64,000 nucleotides of DNA, from assembly GCF_024347075.1 (NCBI RefSeq), contig NZ_AP024900.1, positions 744,001 to 808,000 on the forward strand, read 5' to 3'. This stretch comes from Vibrio rarus (GTDB lineage Bacteria > Pseudomonadota > Gammaproteobacteria > Enterobacterales > Vibrionaceae). Shown piece after piece: positions 19,952 through 26,250 of this stretch (the first letter of the stretch is position 1; each line of letters begins with the position of its first letter). A model generated the notes under the pieces. The model saw nothing but the letters and a program-made list of their open reading frames with translations, was not told the origin of the DNA and made no database searches. A program made the position numbers and the translations under genes.

Positions 19952-20104
19952 GTCTGTCACGCCTCTTAGTACACGGCTGTTCACTATTTTTAATGGCAAC
20001 ATTATCTCACCTCCCTTTACACAGTGATAATAGTCAATAATATCTTTGTGGTGGATGTGCGACTAAACTATAAAAGCACGTATCAGTTAAAGGATGGTGT
20101 TCTA

Positions 20105-20374
20105 ATGAAAAGTACAATGAGCTTAGTCTTGTCCATTATCGTGTTCTCCCCCGTCGTTTTAGCCCAACAAAATGTTGATACGACGAAAGTTAACTCCACT
20201 TCAGTGTTGATGGCGGAAAACAAAAGTGGGTCAAGCACAGAGAGAAAGGTGGTTCCGTCAACATCCATTAAAAAGGATGACATGATGAACCCAATGCAGA
20301 GTACTACTGACTCACCTATGTTAGATAAGGCGGATAAAGAGCCTCGTAAACGGATTCATCACAAACGTAGCTAA
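20105..20374 (+). CDS. small secreted protein, paralogue 1
   Basis: An 89-residue protein with a clear signal peptide (MKSTMSLVLSIIVFSPVVLA, cut before QQ) and a ~69-residue hydrophilic mature part that ends in a basic RKRIHHKRS tail. No family recognised. A second gene about 700 bp downstream encodes a relative: both share the PVVLAQ cleavage region, an AEN(K/R)SGxST(E/D)R motif after cleavage and a terminal HKR(S/A). The frame opens at 20024, but the upstream part is not protein-like. Probably periplasmic; role unknown. Confidence 0.6.
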   Translation: MKSTMSLVLSIIVFSPVVLAQQNVDTTKVNSTSVLMAENKSGSSTERKVVPSTSIKKDDMMNPMQSTTDSPMLDKADKEPRKRIHHKRS

Positions 20375-21076
20375 TTTGCCGGTGAGCTTATAACTGCTTC
20401 TTTCTAGAGGCAGTTTCCCTGAGTCGCTTTTTACTATAAATACCCCTTCACTTGCACACCAATAAGCACAATCAAAAACTAATATATATGCATTGCTGCC
20501 ATGCCCATCTATCAGAATTAATCAGTGAATGACTTATACCAACCGTACTAAAAAACGGGTCATTCTAGCGTGTTAAAATACGCGATAACTGCGTTAGAGT
20601 ATTTGATTGTAGAATAACGACTTATCGAAAAATCCTGCCTTGTTTTCGAGCATTATTCCTGCGCTATTTCTGAACACTTACTTAGTGTGATAGGTATTAA
20701 AAGTCTTAAACTGATGTCGGTTGTTCGATGTTATGTGAAAGATTTACTTATCCGGTAAGGTCTATTTATAGCAATCACAGTAAGTGAGCATAGGGTTTCT
20801 TTTGCAAAAAGTAGTCGAGTTAAGCCTAGGTTAGGAGGATCCGTTACTTACTTTGATGGCAGGTATCTGCCTCATAAAGGGTCATGTTTTGGCCGATGAA
20901 CGGAATGGATAATGGAGGCGAGAGTGAACCTTTTTGAGGTGGATACCGTAAACAATCGTTAGTCCCTAATTGAAAATGATAGCAAATTCTGTGTCAGCAT
21001 AGGTCGTTGATATCATCAAAGTAGTACAAAGTAAGGGACGCTCGTAATGTTAACTTTGTTTAATGAGGGCGTGAAA
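20375..21076. other. intergenic region between the two small secreted paralogues
   Basis: About 700 bp. It holds repeat copy B (20536-20697) and about 350 bp of unassigned sequence before the second paralogue, with only short frames. No clear pseudogene was demonstrated. Confidence 0.5.
20536..20697 (+). repeat. 162-bp palindromic repeat, copy B
   Basis: Complete but slightly diverged copy: it starts ATACCAACCGTACTAAAAAA and ends TTAGTGTGATAGGTAT. Same length and orientation as copy A. Confidence 0.9.
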
Positions 21077-21343
21077 ATGAAATATATTTCTGGATTATTA
21101 GTGGCTTGTATTGCGCTGTTTGCACCTGTGGTTTTAGCGCAAGTAGATTCAACTACTGGCTTTATGGGTTCTTCTGCGATAGTGGTGGCGGAAAATCGCA
21201 GTGGCGACAGCACTGATAGAGTGAGGAAGGGTTGGCATTCAGATAGGCAAAGCCAACCTAGCATGACAGATAGCATGAAAAAACACAGCCAACATGACAA
21301 TGGCATGAAACAACATAAATTCATTAACCATAAACGGGCTTAA
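21077..21343 (+). CDS. small secreted protein, paralogue 2
   Basis: An 88-residue protein with a signal peptide (MKYISGLLVACIALFAPVVLA, cut before QV) and a Ser/His/Lys-rich mature part ending KFINHKRA. It shares with the protein encoded at 20105-20374 the PVVLAQ cut region, the AENRSGDSTDR motif just after it, and the HKR tail, while the middle has diverged. The ATG at 21077 is preferred over 21047, as it starts the signal peptide and has GAGGGCG upstream. No known family recognised. Confidence 0.6.
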   Translation: MKYISGLLVACIALFAPVVLAQVDSTTGFMGSSAIVVAENRSGDSTDRVRKGWHSDRQSQPSMTDSMKKHSQHDNGMKQHKFINHKRA

Positions 21344-21568: not shown

Positions 21569-23872
21569 CTAGCTGGTTTGTTGATTGCTTTCGAGCAATA
21601 AAGCTTCAAAGGCTTCTTTAGATAACGGACGGCTATAGTAATACCCTTGTGCAAATTCACAGTTATGGGTTTGCAGATAGTTTTTATCCCAAGCGGTTTC
21701 AACGCCTTCAGCAACTACTTTCAGGCCGAGCGCTTTTGCCATAGCAATAATGGCATTAACGAGTTCTTGAGACGACGGGGTACTTTCCATATCTTGTAAG
21801 AATGATCGGTCTATTTTCAGTTTACTGAATGGAAATTTCTGTAAATAGCTCAATGCTGAATACCCAGTACCAAAATCATCAATAGAGAAATGGATGCCAA
21901 TTTTCTTGATGTCTTCTAATAAGCGATTGGTCTCACTGTTATTGCTAACCAACAAACTTTCAGTAATTTCAATGTCGAGCAAACTTGGATCGAGCCCTGA
22001 TGACTGCAGAGCGGTTAACACATTCTGCATAACGGTGTCTTGCTGTCTAAATTGAGCCGAAGAGAAATTGACGGCAATAGATAACGGTTGAATGCTTTGC
22101 CACTGCTGTATTTGATGACAGGCCGTATGTAAGGCAATTTCACCGACTTTATGAATAAGTCCATTTTTTTCGGCTATAGGGATAAACTCATTGGGTGACA
22201 CAAATCCTAACTTATCATCATTCCAGCGCATTAGAGCTTCAGCGCCTGCTATTTTTTCACTGTTTAAGTCGATGATCGGTTGGTAATAGACTTCTAGCTT
22301 ACCTTGGTTGATGGCTTGGCGTAGCCTTGCATCAATATCAAGGTTACGTTGAACATTGACGTTCATATTCGGTTCATAGAAGCTAAACCCATTACGGCCT
22401 TCTTTTTTGACCCGATACATAGCAATATCAGCGTGTGCCATGAGATCTTCAGCTGTTTGACCATCTTGAGGGTAAATGGACATACCGATACTGGAAGAGA
22501 CAAAGAACTCACTTTTATCGAGCAAGAAGGGGTCTTCAAAGGTAACGAGTAGTTTTGATGCTAGAGATTGTGCTTCTTCTATTGAAGATAACTCTGGAAT
22601 TACTAATAAGAACTCATCGCCACCAATACGAGCCACCACATCGGTTTTACGCACCGAGTCACGCAGACGTTGCGCTGTCTGTTTTAATAGTTGATCCCCA
22701 GCTAAGTGACCTAATGTATCGTTAATTTGTTTGAAGTTATCAAGGTCAATAAAAATGACTAAGACATTTTTATTGCTTCTTTGCGCTTGTAACAAAGCGT
22801 GCCTTAACTTCTCATCACCTGACTTCCTATTTGAAAGTCGAGTTAACGCATCATGGGTAGCTTGATAGGCTAATTCCAGTTCATACATTTTTCGTCGATC
22901 AATTTCGGTTTTAAGGCGATTGTTTTGACGGGTTAATGCCGATTGTTGCTTGTGTGTTTCTTTAATCTTGGTAGTAAGAACAAGATTGGTGTTATTGATA
23001 CGCAGCGAGTAGTACAGCCCAAAGATAACCGGTAAAGCTAAAAAGGATAAACCTGCGGTAAACCATGTCGAGGTAATGATTTGGCTTTCGGATACAGGCT
23101 CAAACCAAGCATGCAGCCTAAAAGGGGTATTTTTAACTTCTCGGCTAAAATATAAAGTATTTTTTTGGTTTGCGTTTAGGTGATCTTTCTTTGATTCAAA
23201 GGTATTCCAAATGGGCAGTATGGCTTGGTTGGCAACGAGATCAAGTTGACTGCTGCTGTTGAGGTACTCTTGAGAGGTCAATAAGTGAATCAAAACGTCT
23301 CTTTTTACGTAGCCTACGACGACACCGACTAATTCGCCATTAAAGTACACATTTTGTAGCATTCTAATGAGCATGTGGTCGTGTTTAAATTGAATATCAA
23401 TTTTGCTATCCACATGACGCATTTCATCAAATGGAATACTGCTAACATCAAAAGGCTGTTTACGATGAGAATCTGAAATGACATTCGATTTAAAGCCGAC
23501 AATCAGCATTCGATCAAATAGGGCGACCTTATTATGGGTTGATTTGGTTAAACTTATGAGATTGTGATTGAGTTGCAGTAGGCTAGAGCCTAATCCATAT
23601 TTCATGGACATCCCCGATGCGAGGTTAGCAAAAAACGTGTAAGTCGTTTTATGTTTTGCGACCCCTTGGACGTCATAACGCGTCTCAGCTAAAAAATAGC
23701 TAAGGGATTCAGCATATGTTTGCACCTTTAGGTTGAGTTCATTAATTTGAGACTCTTTTAGGCGATCTTGTCCTGCCTGGGTGACAATAATCATTAATAA
23801 TAGGTAAGCTCCCAGCAGGAAGCCTCCGATTAATATTGCATTTCGGCTATGTAGTTTAAGCCTCATTCTCAT
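21569..23872 (-). CDS. scrC: ScrC-like GGDEF-EAL membrane sensor (c-di-GMP turnover)
   Basis: A 767-residue inner-membrane protein. Membrane segments at about 11-31 and 267-290 flank a periplasmic sensor region. A coiled linker leads to a GGDEF domain with intact GGDEF at 417-421 and an inhibitory RxxD site (408-411), then an EAL domain with intact EAL at 545-547, DDFGTGYSALSYL, KIDRSF and VVAEGVET. Both activities are therefore possible. It overlaps the upstream periplasmic-binding gene by 4 bases. In V. parahaemolyticus, ScrC switches from cyclase to phosphodiesterase when ScrB and the ScrA-dependent signal are present, controlling swarming versus capsule. The symbol rests on operon layout and architecture. 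Confidence 0.8.
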   Translation of the reverse strand: MRMRLKLHSRNAILIGGFLLGAYLLLMIIVTQAGQDRLKESQINELNLKVQTYAESLSYFLAETRYDVQGVAKHKTTYTFFANLASGMSMKYGLGSSLLQLNHNLISLTKSTHNKVALFDRMLIVGFKSNVISDSHRKQPFDVSSIPFDEMRHVDSKIDIQFKHDHMLIRMLQNVYFNGELVGVVVGYVKRDVLIHLLTSQEYLNSSSQLDLVANQAILPIWNTFESKKDHLNANQKNTLYFSREVKNTPFRLHAWFEPVSESQIITSTWFTAGLSFLALPVIFGLYYSLRINNTNLVLTTKIKETHKQQSALTRQNNRLKTEIDRRKMYELELAYQATHDALTRLSNRKSGDEKLRHALLQAQRSNKNVLVIFIDLDNFKQINDTLGHLAGDQLLKQTAQRLRDSVRKTDVVARIGGDEFLLVIPELSSIEEAQSLASKLLVTFEDPFLLDKSEFFVSSSIGMSIYPQDGQTAEDLMAHADIAMYRVKKEGRNGFSFYEPNMNVNVQRNLDIDARLRQAINQGKLEVYYQPIIDLNSEKIAGAEALMRWNDDKLGFVSPNEFIPIAEKNGLIHKVGEIALHTACHQIQQWQSIQPLSIAVNFSSAQFRQQDTVMQNVLTALQSSGLDPSLLDIEITESLLVSNNSETNRLLEDIKKIGIHFSIDDFGTGYSALSYLQKFPFSKLKIDRSFLQDMESTPSSQELVNAIIAMAKALGLKVVAEGVETAWDKNYLQTHNCEFAQGYYYSRPLSKEAFEALLLESNQQTS

Positions 23873-24801
23873 TTGTCGTTGTTCTCGTGAGCCTCGAAGT
23901 AATCACTATAAAAGTAGAAAACAGAAGGATAGTATTTTTCAATTAAAAGATGATACGTACCATTACTTCTAATCAGTTTTAGGTAATCATTAAACGCCTC
24001 ACGCAATTGTGGGGAATCTTTACGAAAACCGGCAGCCATAAATTGCTCTTCTGATACCGGGCCGATCACTTTGATTTCACCTGGCCATTTCTCTAAAGCG
24101 ATTAAGGTGTCAGGGACATCTAGTAAAGTATTGGCCGCATCGTTATTTAAAATGACGGGAACCATTTCATTTAACTTACGTGCCTTTTCTGGAAGTATAA
24201 TATTAGCGCCTGTCTCGTAGAGATCATAAAGGTTTGGATCTAAACAGGTTTGTTCCATTACCAAGACATCTTGACCTTTAATTAGTCGCTTAACCTCCAC
24301 GATATCATTATCGATAGAGTCGCTTGGGGAGATAGGCTTTAGTTTTGAGTCTGACCGAGAAACAAGCCATACAGCAGAAGGGAAATAGTCATCAGAAAAG
24401 TCCACTAACTCCTCTCTCCAAGGAAGAATGGTTGCCCCGTTAGCTATTATATCCCCTGTAATCGGTTCACTGGCACCATATTGTATTTTATTGTCTTTAA
24501 ATACAGCTCTCTTGCCGGTAAGTTGTCCAAATGCACGGCTCCAAGTGCTAGGTACAAATTCGTATTTTACGCCTATGTATTGAGCAAAGCCTAGCACTAG
24601 TTCAACATCTAACCCTCGCGCAGAATATAATCCGTCGGTATTGATGTAATTAATAAAATTGGCATAGGGGATGCCGATATGTCTAATGACACCAGCTTCA
24701 CGAATCTCTTTTAAATCATGGGCGTAGCATGCCTTAATACTCAACAGTAATGTAATTAAAATACTGCCAATAAACGTCCACAGAGTCTTGGGTGCTGTCA
24801 T
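23869..24801 (-). CDS. scrB: ScrB-like periplasmic solute-binding protein
   Basis: A 310-residue periplasmic protein of the amino-acid-type SBP_bac_3 family with a signal peptide (cut near CYA-H). The body shows EIREAGVIRHIGIPYANF, GLDVELVLGFAQYIGVKYEFV and ends in YYPSVFYFYSDYF. It lies between the class-V aminotransferase-like gene and the GGDEF-EAL gene and overlaps the latter, as in scrABC, where ScrB binds the S-signal and controls ScrC. The frame extends to 24855, but the ATG at 24801 gives a normal signal peptide. It looks intact. Confidence 0.75.
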   Translation of the reverse strand: MTAPKTLWTFIGSILITLLLSIKACYAHDLKEIREAGVIRHIGIPYANFINYINTDGLYSARGLDVELVLGFAQYIGVKYEFVPSTWSRAFGQLTGKRAVFKDNKIQYGASEPITGDIIANGATILPWREELVDFSDDYFPSAVWLVSRSDSKLKPISPSDSIDNDIVEVKRLIKGQDVLVMEQTCLDPNLYDLYETGANIILPEKARKLNEMVPVILNNDAANTLLDVPDTLIALEKWPGEIKVIGPVSEEQFMAAGFRKDSPQLREAFNDYLKLIRSNGTYHLLIEKYYPSVFYFYSDYFEAHENNDK

Positions 24802-24861
24802 TAATGAAATTATCCTAAGTAGAGTATTGGGCTCGCTCAAAACAAGTGAGCCCAACCAAGG

Positions 24862-26250
24862 TTACGCCATGCGTTTGTATAAATGAGCCATAGCCTTAAC
24901 TAGCTCTTTTACATCATCTTCATCATGGAAAAGGTGAGTTAAGATACATAGTGCATATGTATCAGTAGTGTCACCTAGATGCAACGGGAAGTTCGTGGTA
25001 CGGATAATATAGCCGTATTCTTCGCGAAGGCGATCACGAAATTCGGTAAGGCGAGTAATGTTAGCCACATCGTCAAAGAATGGGTTAAATGCAGTTAAAT
25101 CACTAGACAGTTCGCGGTTTGGCGGATAGAAGAAAGCCCCTTTTGGTAACTGCTTAGCTAGCTCTTCTTTACATAAAGCACTGAGGTCTAAAATGCGCTC
25201 TTCGATCTAATCACGGCCAATTTGATCCCAAAGTTTACAAGAGTCCGTTAATGCTTGCTTTGATGGGTAGTGATCATTACCAATATATTGCATACGAGTT
25301 GCAAAGCTTGAGGTTTCATATTTATCATCCACCTAATGAAGAGTTAATTTGATAGAAAGGACGGCGATCTGCAGGCCAGAAACGTACTAGACGCTCAGCT
25401 TCTTGGCGAATGTATAAAATACCGGGCCACAGTGCTACTTATGGCCTGAACCTGCGTAGAAGTCACAGTCAAAATCGTGTAGGTTTACATTCATCATACC
25501 GATAGTATGTGCGGCATCAACTAGGGTGGGGGTTCTGTTATTACGGGCAAGTGCACAGATTTCTTTTGCTGGAAGTAACGCCCCTGTTTTATAGGTGATG
25601 TGTGAGAACATGACTAGACGAGCTTTGTCTTTAGCATCCGCAATCGCTTTAGCAAAAGGTTTTACGTAATCCGCTTTACTGAGTTTTTTCTCGCCAGTGT
25701 AAACAGGAATTTCTACTACGACTATTTTGGCACCAGAGCGCTCTGCTGCTGCAAATAGAGGGGAAGTACCACCAATATGCTCATGGTGGGTGGTAATAAT
25801 GATGTCGCCTTTTTTAAAGTCTAGTCCACCAATGATAGGGCTCATGCCATCGGTCGTATTACGGCTAAGAACAATCTCATTCTCATCAGCACCAAAGCCT
25901 GGAGCAATGTCTGCAACCATTTCGCTCACATAAGGCCATGCACCAAATTTGTTTTGCATGTCCCAAGGGTATTTAGCGACCAGTTCGTTATTCTCATTAA
26001 AGGCTTGCAACACGCTGCTTGGCATAGAACCTGTGGTGCCAATGTTCATATAAACACTATCTTTAGCAAGGGAGAATTGTTGCTGCACTTTCTTCCAAAA
26101 GTTTTTATCTGAAGATGAATTACCTACGAAGTTTGGTTGTTTTGCAGAAGCACTTGCTGAGAAAAGAGAGGTACTTAATCCTGCAACTGCGACACCAGCG
26201 CCACCTTTTAAAAAGTTCCTGCGATTAAACTTAGACGTGATTTCACTCAT
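24862..26250 (-). pseudogene. scrA: scrA-like PLP-dependent aminotransferase gene, disrupted
   Basis: A fold-type I (class V aminotransferase-like) protein with a Tat-type signal (RRNFLKGGAGVAVAG) starts at 26250 and reads normally to the presumed PLP lysine in GSGHK. There an in-frame TAG at 25435-25437 stops it. The family continues after this stop in shifted frames: ILYIRQEAERLVRFWP after a frameshift near 25421, then DDKYETSSFATRM after another near 25330, then a second in-frame TAG at 25207-25209, then an open end to 24862. Conserved-looking protein on both sides of all four lesions shows recent decay. ScrA is needed for the S-signal in V. parahaemolyticus. Confidence 0.85.

Follow-up and report, generated by a model that had tools for sequence, protein, structure and literature searches.

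The minus-strand operon at positions 26250-21569 of the window (the whole 64,000-nucleotide stretch of Vibrio rarus DNA that was analysed) is scrABC, encoding a Tat-signal class V PLP enzyme, a family 3 solute-binding protein and a GGDEF-EAL protein. The order scrA-scrB-scrC, on one strand and with tight spacing, is that of a scrABC surface-sensing and c-di-GMP operon, and the trio matches the scrABC operons of Vibrio, Photobacterium, Moritella, Marinobacter and Ferrimonas. A preliminary description of this DNA had likened the gene order to scrABC of V. parahaemolyticus, an assignment that order, domains and the ScrB and ScrC trees bear out. The operon comprises the following features:

24862..26250, minus strand: scrA pseudogene of the S-signal synthase family, a class V PLP enzyme with Tat signal; tblastn aligns intact ScrA over its full length, lesions included
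25438..26250, minus strand: open 5' piece of scrA, 271 codons, ending directly after SGHK; Pfam Aminotran_5 and TAT_signal, none of 67 invariant sites changed
25435..25437, minus strand: first in-frame TAG, from tblastn against intact ScrA
25330..25424, minus strand: scrA stretch in another frame, between two frame changes (ungapped frame +1 match, 25423-25331)
25207..25209, minus strand: second in-frame TAG, from tblastn against intact ScrA
24904..24948, minus strand: three changed residues, codons from 24948, 24942 and 24906, at sites invariant in 47 intact ScrA
24829..24853, minus strand: hairpin separating scrA from scrB, found in 9 loci, the window included
23869..24801, minus strand: scrB, solute-binding protein, 310 aa, intact; SBP_bac_3, amino-acid-binding fold, groups with ScrB
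21569..23872, minus strand: scrC, GGDEF-EAL protein, 767 aa, intact by Pfam, motifs and tree

Both scrB and scrC are open, and the scrC ATG at 23872 overlaps the scrB stop. The scrB frame more probably starts at the ATG at 24801 than at the TTG at 24855, since the former has an upstream AGGA and a signal peptide after it, while the latter sits just ahead of the hairpin. Within the window, Rfam gave no match at gathering scores, a promoter scan returned 14 sites against 16.5 expected, and 8 terminator-like sites were found against 4.2 expected. When the 200 bases upstream of scrA were compared across 11 loci, clear conservation appeared only at the ribosome site. Downstream of scrC, two similar small ORFs with signal-peptide-like starts and no Pfam match lie on the plus strand at 20024-20374 and 21047-21343.

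The alignment of 24862-26250 with intact ScrA, which had been suggested as a check, identifies scrA as a pseudogene. With intact V. inusitatus ScrA (473 aa) as tblastn query, the whole length of the protein is covered at 69% identity on the minus strand; identity is 74-84% in five of the six ungapped matches and 60% in the remaining one, which covers the first 58 residues. The lesions agree closely with the preliminary description: two in-frame TAG codons interrupt the gene, the first straight after SGHK, protein is recognisable on either side of each lesion, and the frameshifts formerly placed near 25421 and 25330 were found near 25424 and 25330, that is, within about 3 bases, with some 31 codons out of frame between them. 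We take the SGHK lysine to be the PLP lysine. Another intact ScrA (P0002), searched against the host's own genome, gave a single full-length match with 4 TAG in one frame, two of which fall within the out-of-frame stretch. All four lesions fit in 231 bases and, together with the changed invariant sites, are confined to the last 42% of the gene. The three changed residues lie after the second stop and include the Arg of an Arg-Ile-Ser motif; the part that is lost presumably comprises the C-terminal domain and the Arg expected in this fold to bind the substrate carboxylate. The window thus lacks an intact ScrA, and the state of the operon, scrA broken with scrB and scrC intact, is confirmed at the level of sequence. 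The possibility of a second, intact scrA had also been raised; none was found in the host's own genome, either by DNA search or by protein searches at E<=1e-20, 1e-30 and 1e-60.

The intact members of the ScrA family carry a twin-arginine motif (RRx then F, L, I, V or M) in their first 45 residues in 47 of 47 cases, and in the window the corresponding segment is 26250-26180. In both NCBIfam and PDB, an intact ScrA comes closest to PvdN, a PLP enzyme of the periplasm; the best model, NF051467 (PvdN), scores 112 bits with P0002 and 82 bits with the window's 5' piece, both far below its cut-off of 650. The Tat motif and the likeness to PvdN point to a site, the periplasm, and to a kind of enzyme for S-signal synthesis, and the signal may therefore be made in the periplasm. 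In the open-licence literature, outside which the original scrABC papers lie, no title on ScrA with twin-arginine, Vibrio and swarming was found. Between scrA and scrB, the hairpin is kept as 7 distinct sequences in the 9 loci, with 98% of cells paired and one of 8 pairs non-standard in the window; two pairs show changes in both partners, a count attained in 180 of 500 shuffles as well. Two further loci (L070, L071), outside this count, have different inverted repeats between scrA and scrB by eye.

As for the receiver and output genes, trees of ScrB and ScrC (53 rows each) place the window in a nine-row Halioticoli set, with support of 98/97 for ScrB and an SH-aLRT of 99 for ScrC in a quick tree. 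Both proteins thus group with true ScrB and ScrC, V. parahaemolyticus (L081) being included with ScrA and ScrB 99.4% and 99.7% identical to the proteins so named; on these two trees, not a species tree, the host is placed with the Halioticoli clade. ScrB belongs to Pfam SBP_bac_3 and has the amino-acid-type solute-binding fold; its structure model has a mean pLDDT of 88.5, and Foldseek assigns it to the general amino-acid-binding protein fold. When the window's ScrB was aligned with 43 proteins chosen out of 120 listed, R129 proved invariant across all 44 and aligned with the Arg of solved amino-acid-binding proteins, which we take to be the residue binding the ligand carboxylate. ScrC carries RKTD-x5-GGDEF from 22651, EALMRW from 22240 and DDFGTG from 21880. 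Among 47 relatives, GGDEF and EAL are found in all and the RxxD spacing in 38, and the earlier picture of open, coupled genes with GGDEF, RxxD and EAL motifs holds in frames, overlap and motifs alike. The glutamate E545 of the window's ScrC aligns with the EAL glutamate E554 of the V. parahaemolyticus protein.

A receiver pair devoid of its synthase is unusual. Of 227 Vibrio genomes, the very same 42 gave matches to ScrB (E<=1e-50) and to ScrA (E<=1e-30), which makes the loss unusual and suggests that scrBC is rarely kept alone. Among 394 genomes of the order, ScrB was found in 31 and ScrA in 30 (E<=1e-60), the sole difference being G426, a complete single-contig genome with adjoining scrB and scrC, whose best ScrA match at E<=1e-5 is only 29% identical over part of the protein (E=1.8e-9). 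In the named-genome collection scrA adjoins scrB in 31 of 35 loci. Loci L061-L063 have a ScrB-like protein at about 50% and a third gene just 25-26% like ScrC, and L039, from a Thalassotalea MAG, has scrB and scrC but no scrA; the most ScrA-like match in its sequence is 26% identical. The L039 ScrB and ScrC fall with the Halioticoli clade on a long branch, which suggests that this Thalassotalea received the receiver pair alone by transfer; a MAG binning error or a missing part of the genome would be another possibility. Ribosomal-protein and nusG-secE-like genes, named by eye, neighbour scrBC in both L039 and L136 (G426). In G276, ScrA and ScrB lie on separate contigs.

Every one of the 10 distinct related loci in the window's ScrB group has a full-length ScrA. 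Elsewhere, scrA carries a single stop in G078 and a single frame change in G183 and again in G010; one frame change also affects scrB in G090, whose scrC is short as well, and one affects scrC in G173. Recurrent scrA loss across vibrios was considered and rejected: counting the window, 4 of 6 broken genes are scrA (about 0.07 by length, not significant), and single lesions may be errors. In the open-licence literature, again with the original scrABC papers outside it, no report of a scrABC pseudogene in Vibrio was found. In three relatives (G143, G106, G168) a further ScrA occurs that shares 52% identity with the V. inusitatus protein and has neither scrB nor scrC within the 8.8 kb around it. 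In V. inusitatus, V. comitans and V. superstes (L092, L093, L094) an orphan ScrA paralogue adjoins a protein with a signal-peptide-like start; we take this neighbour to be RidA-like, which may hint at the chemistry of ScrA enzymes. Between V. comitans and V. inusitatus (L034 and L035), ScrA is 71% identical, ScrB 92% and ScrC 94%, and three V. breoganii ScrA clusters (P0002, P0003, P0005) differ blockwise; scrA appears mosaic, possibly through swapping of alleles of the signal synthase.

Swarming control via lateral flagella does not extend to this host, in whose genome Flagellin_N has no match. The same domain is absent from 9 of 10 related genomes (G206, G184, G143, G168, G127, G065, G106, G101, G082), the exception being V. 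breoganii G202, whose third contig has two matches. The search covered 17 genomes: G078, G182 and G069 likewise lack the domain, G183, G010, G176 and G029 have it, and 4 of the 14 control genomes gave a match. The title of the paper describing V. halioticoli calls that species non-motile. A host that lacks flagellin cannot swarm by flagella, so the output of scrABC here must be another one, most likely exopolysaccharide or adhesion. The flagellin-less relatives retain an undamaged operon, which is therefore of use to them; as this includes an intact scrA, loss of flagella alone does not explain the loss of scrA.

For the site counts, 47 of 64 operon-length loci (L032-L095) were used: 15 were dropped for lacking scrA, holding an orphan scrA, coming from the host's own genome, having a broken gene or being duplicates, and 2 more for an identical ScrC, 'intact' being the criterion by which these 47 were chosen. 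Relative to them, 3 of 119 invariant sites are changed in scrA, 1 of 85 in scrB and 0 of 144 in scrC, and the difference between scrA and scrB plus scrC is not significant (p=0.12). Within scrA, no change precedes the first stop, as against 3 of 52 sites later (Fisher p=0.08). The rate in the last scrA piece (3/28) was reached by none of 47 leave-one-out controls, and that of scrB by 5 of 47. Residues never seen in the 47 relatives do not set scrA apart from scrB and scrC: they number 7 of 111 in the last scrA piece (equalled or passed by 5/47 controls), 14 of 303 in scrB (4/47) and 28 of 756 in scrC (13/47). Ka was compared between the window and 7 relatives, L034 being left out because its scrA is mosaic, and shows no rise in the scrA pieces, whose ratio to the expectation from relative-relative distances is 0.77-0.97, with scrC and scrB at 1.08-1.09. 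This argues for a recent loss of scrA and disfavours an old one. Ks of the window pieces against the same 7 relatives was either high (0.86 and up) or could not be computed, for scrB in 6 of the 7 comparisons and for scrC in all 7, and no Ka/Ks is given.

Several other explanations have to be weighed against a true loss of the synthase. Four lesions packed into so short a segment, seen in one assembly, could reflect sequencing or assembly errors in a gene that is really intact. In this regard, the matching regions of two related genomes (G184, G202) were searched for ORFs of 120 residues or more, which were compared with the window and judged at >=45% identity over >=60% of length, shorter matches being left unjudged. 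The threshold was passed by 26 of 51 ORFs (G184) and 17 of 46 (G202), and among these colinear ORFs one in each set is disrupted in the window, scrA both times, in a check that would overlook genes broken by large loss. With scrA the sole broken gene in either set, an artefact is unlikely; moreover, two substitution stops and three changed invariant residues are untypical of indel errors, and we regard this explanation as improbable. In the protein database, the 271-residue ScrA piece is a single sequence from two contigs, the longest being the window's. It is still less probable that this piece, with its Tat signal and ribosome site, remains functional, so that scrA would be shortened and not dead: the confinement of the damage to the last 42%, and of changed invariant sites to the part after the first stop, would fit, but all 10 distinct related loci have full-length ScrA, and the missing part holds the C-terminal domain and the Arg that in this fold is expected to bind the substrate carboxylate. 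Programmed recoding, by readthrough or frameshifting, could in principle exploit the recognisable protein that flanks every lesion; we give it almost no credence, as a single gene would require readthrough of two stops plus two frame shifts, invariant residues are lost too, and none of the 10 related loci has such lesions.

A more serious rival, which we nonetheless hold to be rather unlikely, is that scrBC is also out of use, scrA having merely been the first to go, with scrBC due to decay next, and the open frames reflecting how recent the event is. The unraised Ka of the scrA pieces fits such recency, the invariant-site and never-seen-residue counts do not part scrA from scrB significantly, ScrA and ScrB share the same 42 of 227 Vibrio genomes with scrBC rarely alone, and, with no flagellin, the best-known output is missing. 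Against this stand the untouched invariant sites of scrC, the flagellin-less relatives that retain the entire operon, and the position of the lesions: all four hit scrA, which makes up 30% of the coding length of the operon. Under equal freedom to decay this has a probability of 0.30^4, about 0.008, and favours, without proving, continued selection on scrBC. Such selection is only partly supported.

Taken together, we consider it likely that this is a genuine scrABC operon whose S-signal synthase gene was recently inactivated, with scrB and scrC intact and probably under selection, and with ScrC a cyclase by default unless neighbours supply the signal. In passages of PMC11315295 and PMC10269520, S-signal bound by ScrB switches the mode of ScrC, the V. 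parahaemolyticus protein being a diguanylate cyclase that favours exopolysaccharide and biofilm without S-signal and a phosphodiesterase with signal-bound ScrB; a passage of the former paper also reports that a changed EAL glutamate 554 leaves ScrC cyclase only, and calls the S-signal unknown. Given the published cyclase state, a default cyclase is the direct prediction in pure culture. The cell would make no S-signal, ScrC would default to diguanylate cyclase, and c-di-GMP would be higher when the operon is expressed; ScrB, its binding fold kept, could switch ScrC to phosphodiesterase given S-signal from scrA+ neighbours. Eavesdropping on the neighbours' signal, or a ScrC held in one mode, as the preliminary description proposed, would each be plausible.

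A wider proposal, which we put forward only tentatively, is that ScrBC acts as a solo receiver, the window's Vibrio, G426 and the Thalassotalea answering the S-signal of other species, and that in flagellin-less vibrios the circuit controls adhesion and not swarming. As a receiver-only form, found in nature, of a known system, the operon is of moderate interest. With scrA lost and the receiver otherwise intact, it poses the question of whether bacteria can keep listening to a signal that they no longer make; beside flagellin-less species that keep the whole circuit, it makes ScrABC control beyond swarming, and S-signal crossing between species, testable.

Among known systems, the scrABC operon of V. 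parahaemolyticus (VPA1513-VPA1511) has the same order and domains as that of the window, with ScrA pieces 56%, 61% and 79% identical to P0032 and ScrB 62% identical to P0181. The window differs in its broken scrA, in a host without flagellin, and in its place on the largest contig, the V. parahaemolyticus operon being on a small chromosome. LuxR solos such as SdiA (PMC12086679) likewise keep a receptor without a signal synthase of their own, in unrelated proteins and hence as an analogy only. G426 and L039 share with the window receiver and output genes without a synthase; in them scrA is absent, whereas in the window it is a pseudogene. Lastly, the Halioticoli clade (V. breoganii, V. halioticoli, V. 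inusitatus and others) has ScrB 74-77% identical to the window's in 7 loci, shares the hairpin between scrA and scrB and mostly lacks flagellin, but its scrA is intact in each of the 10 distinct related loci.
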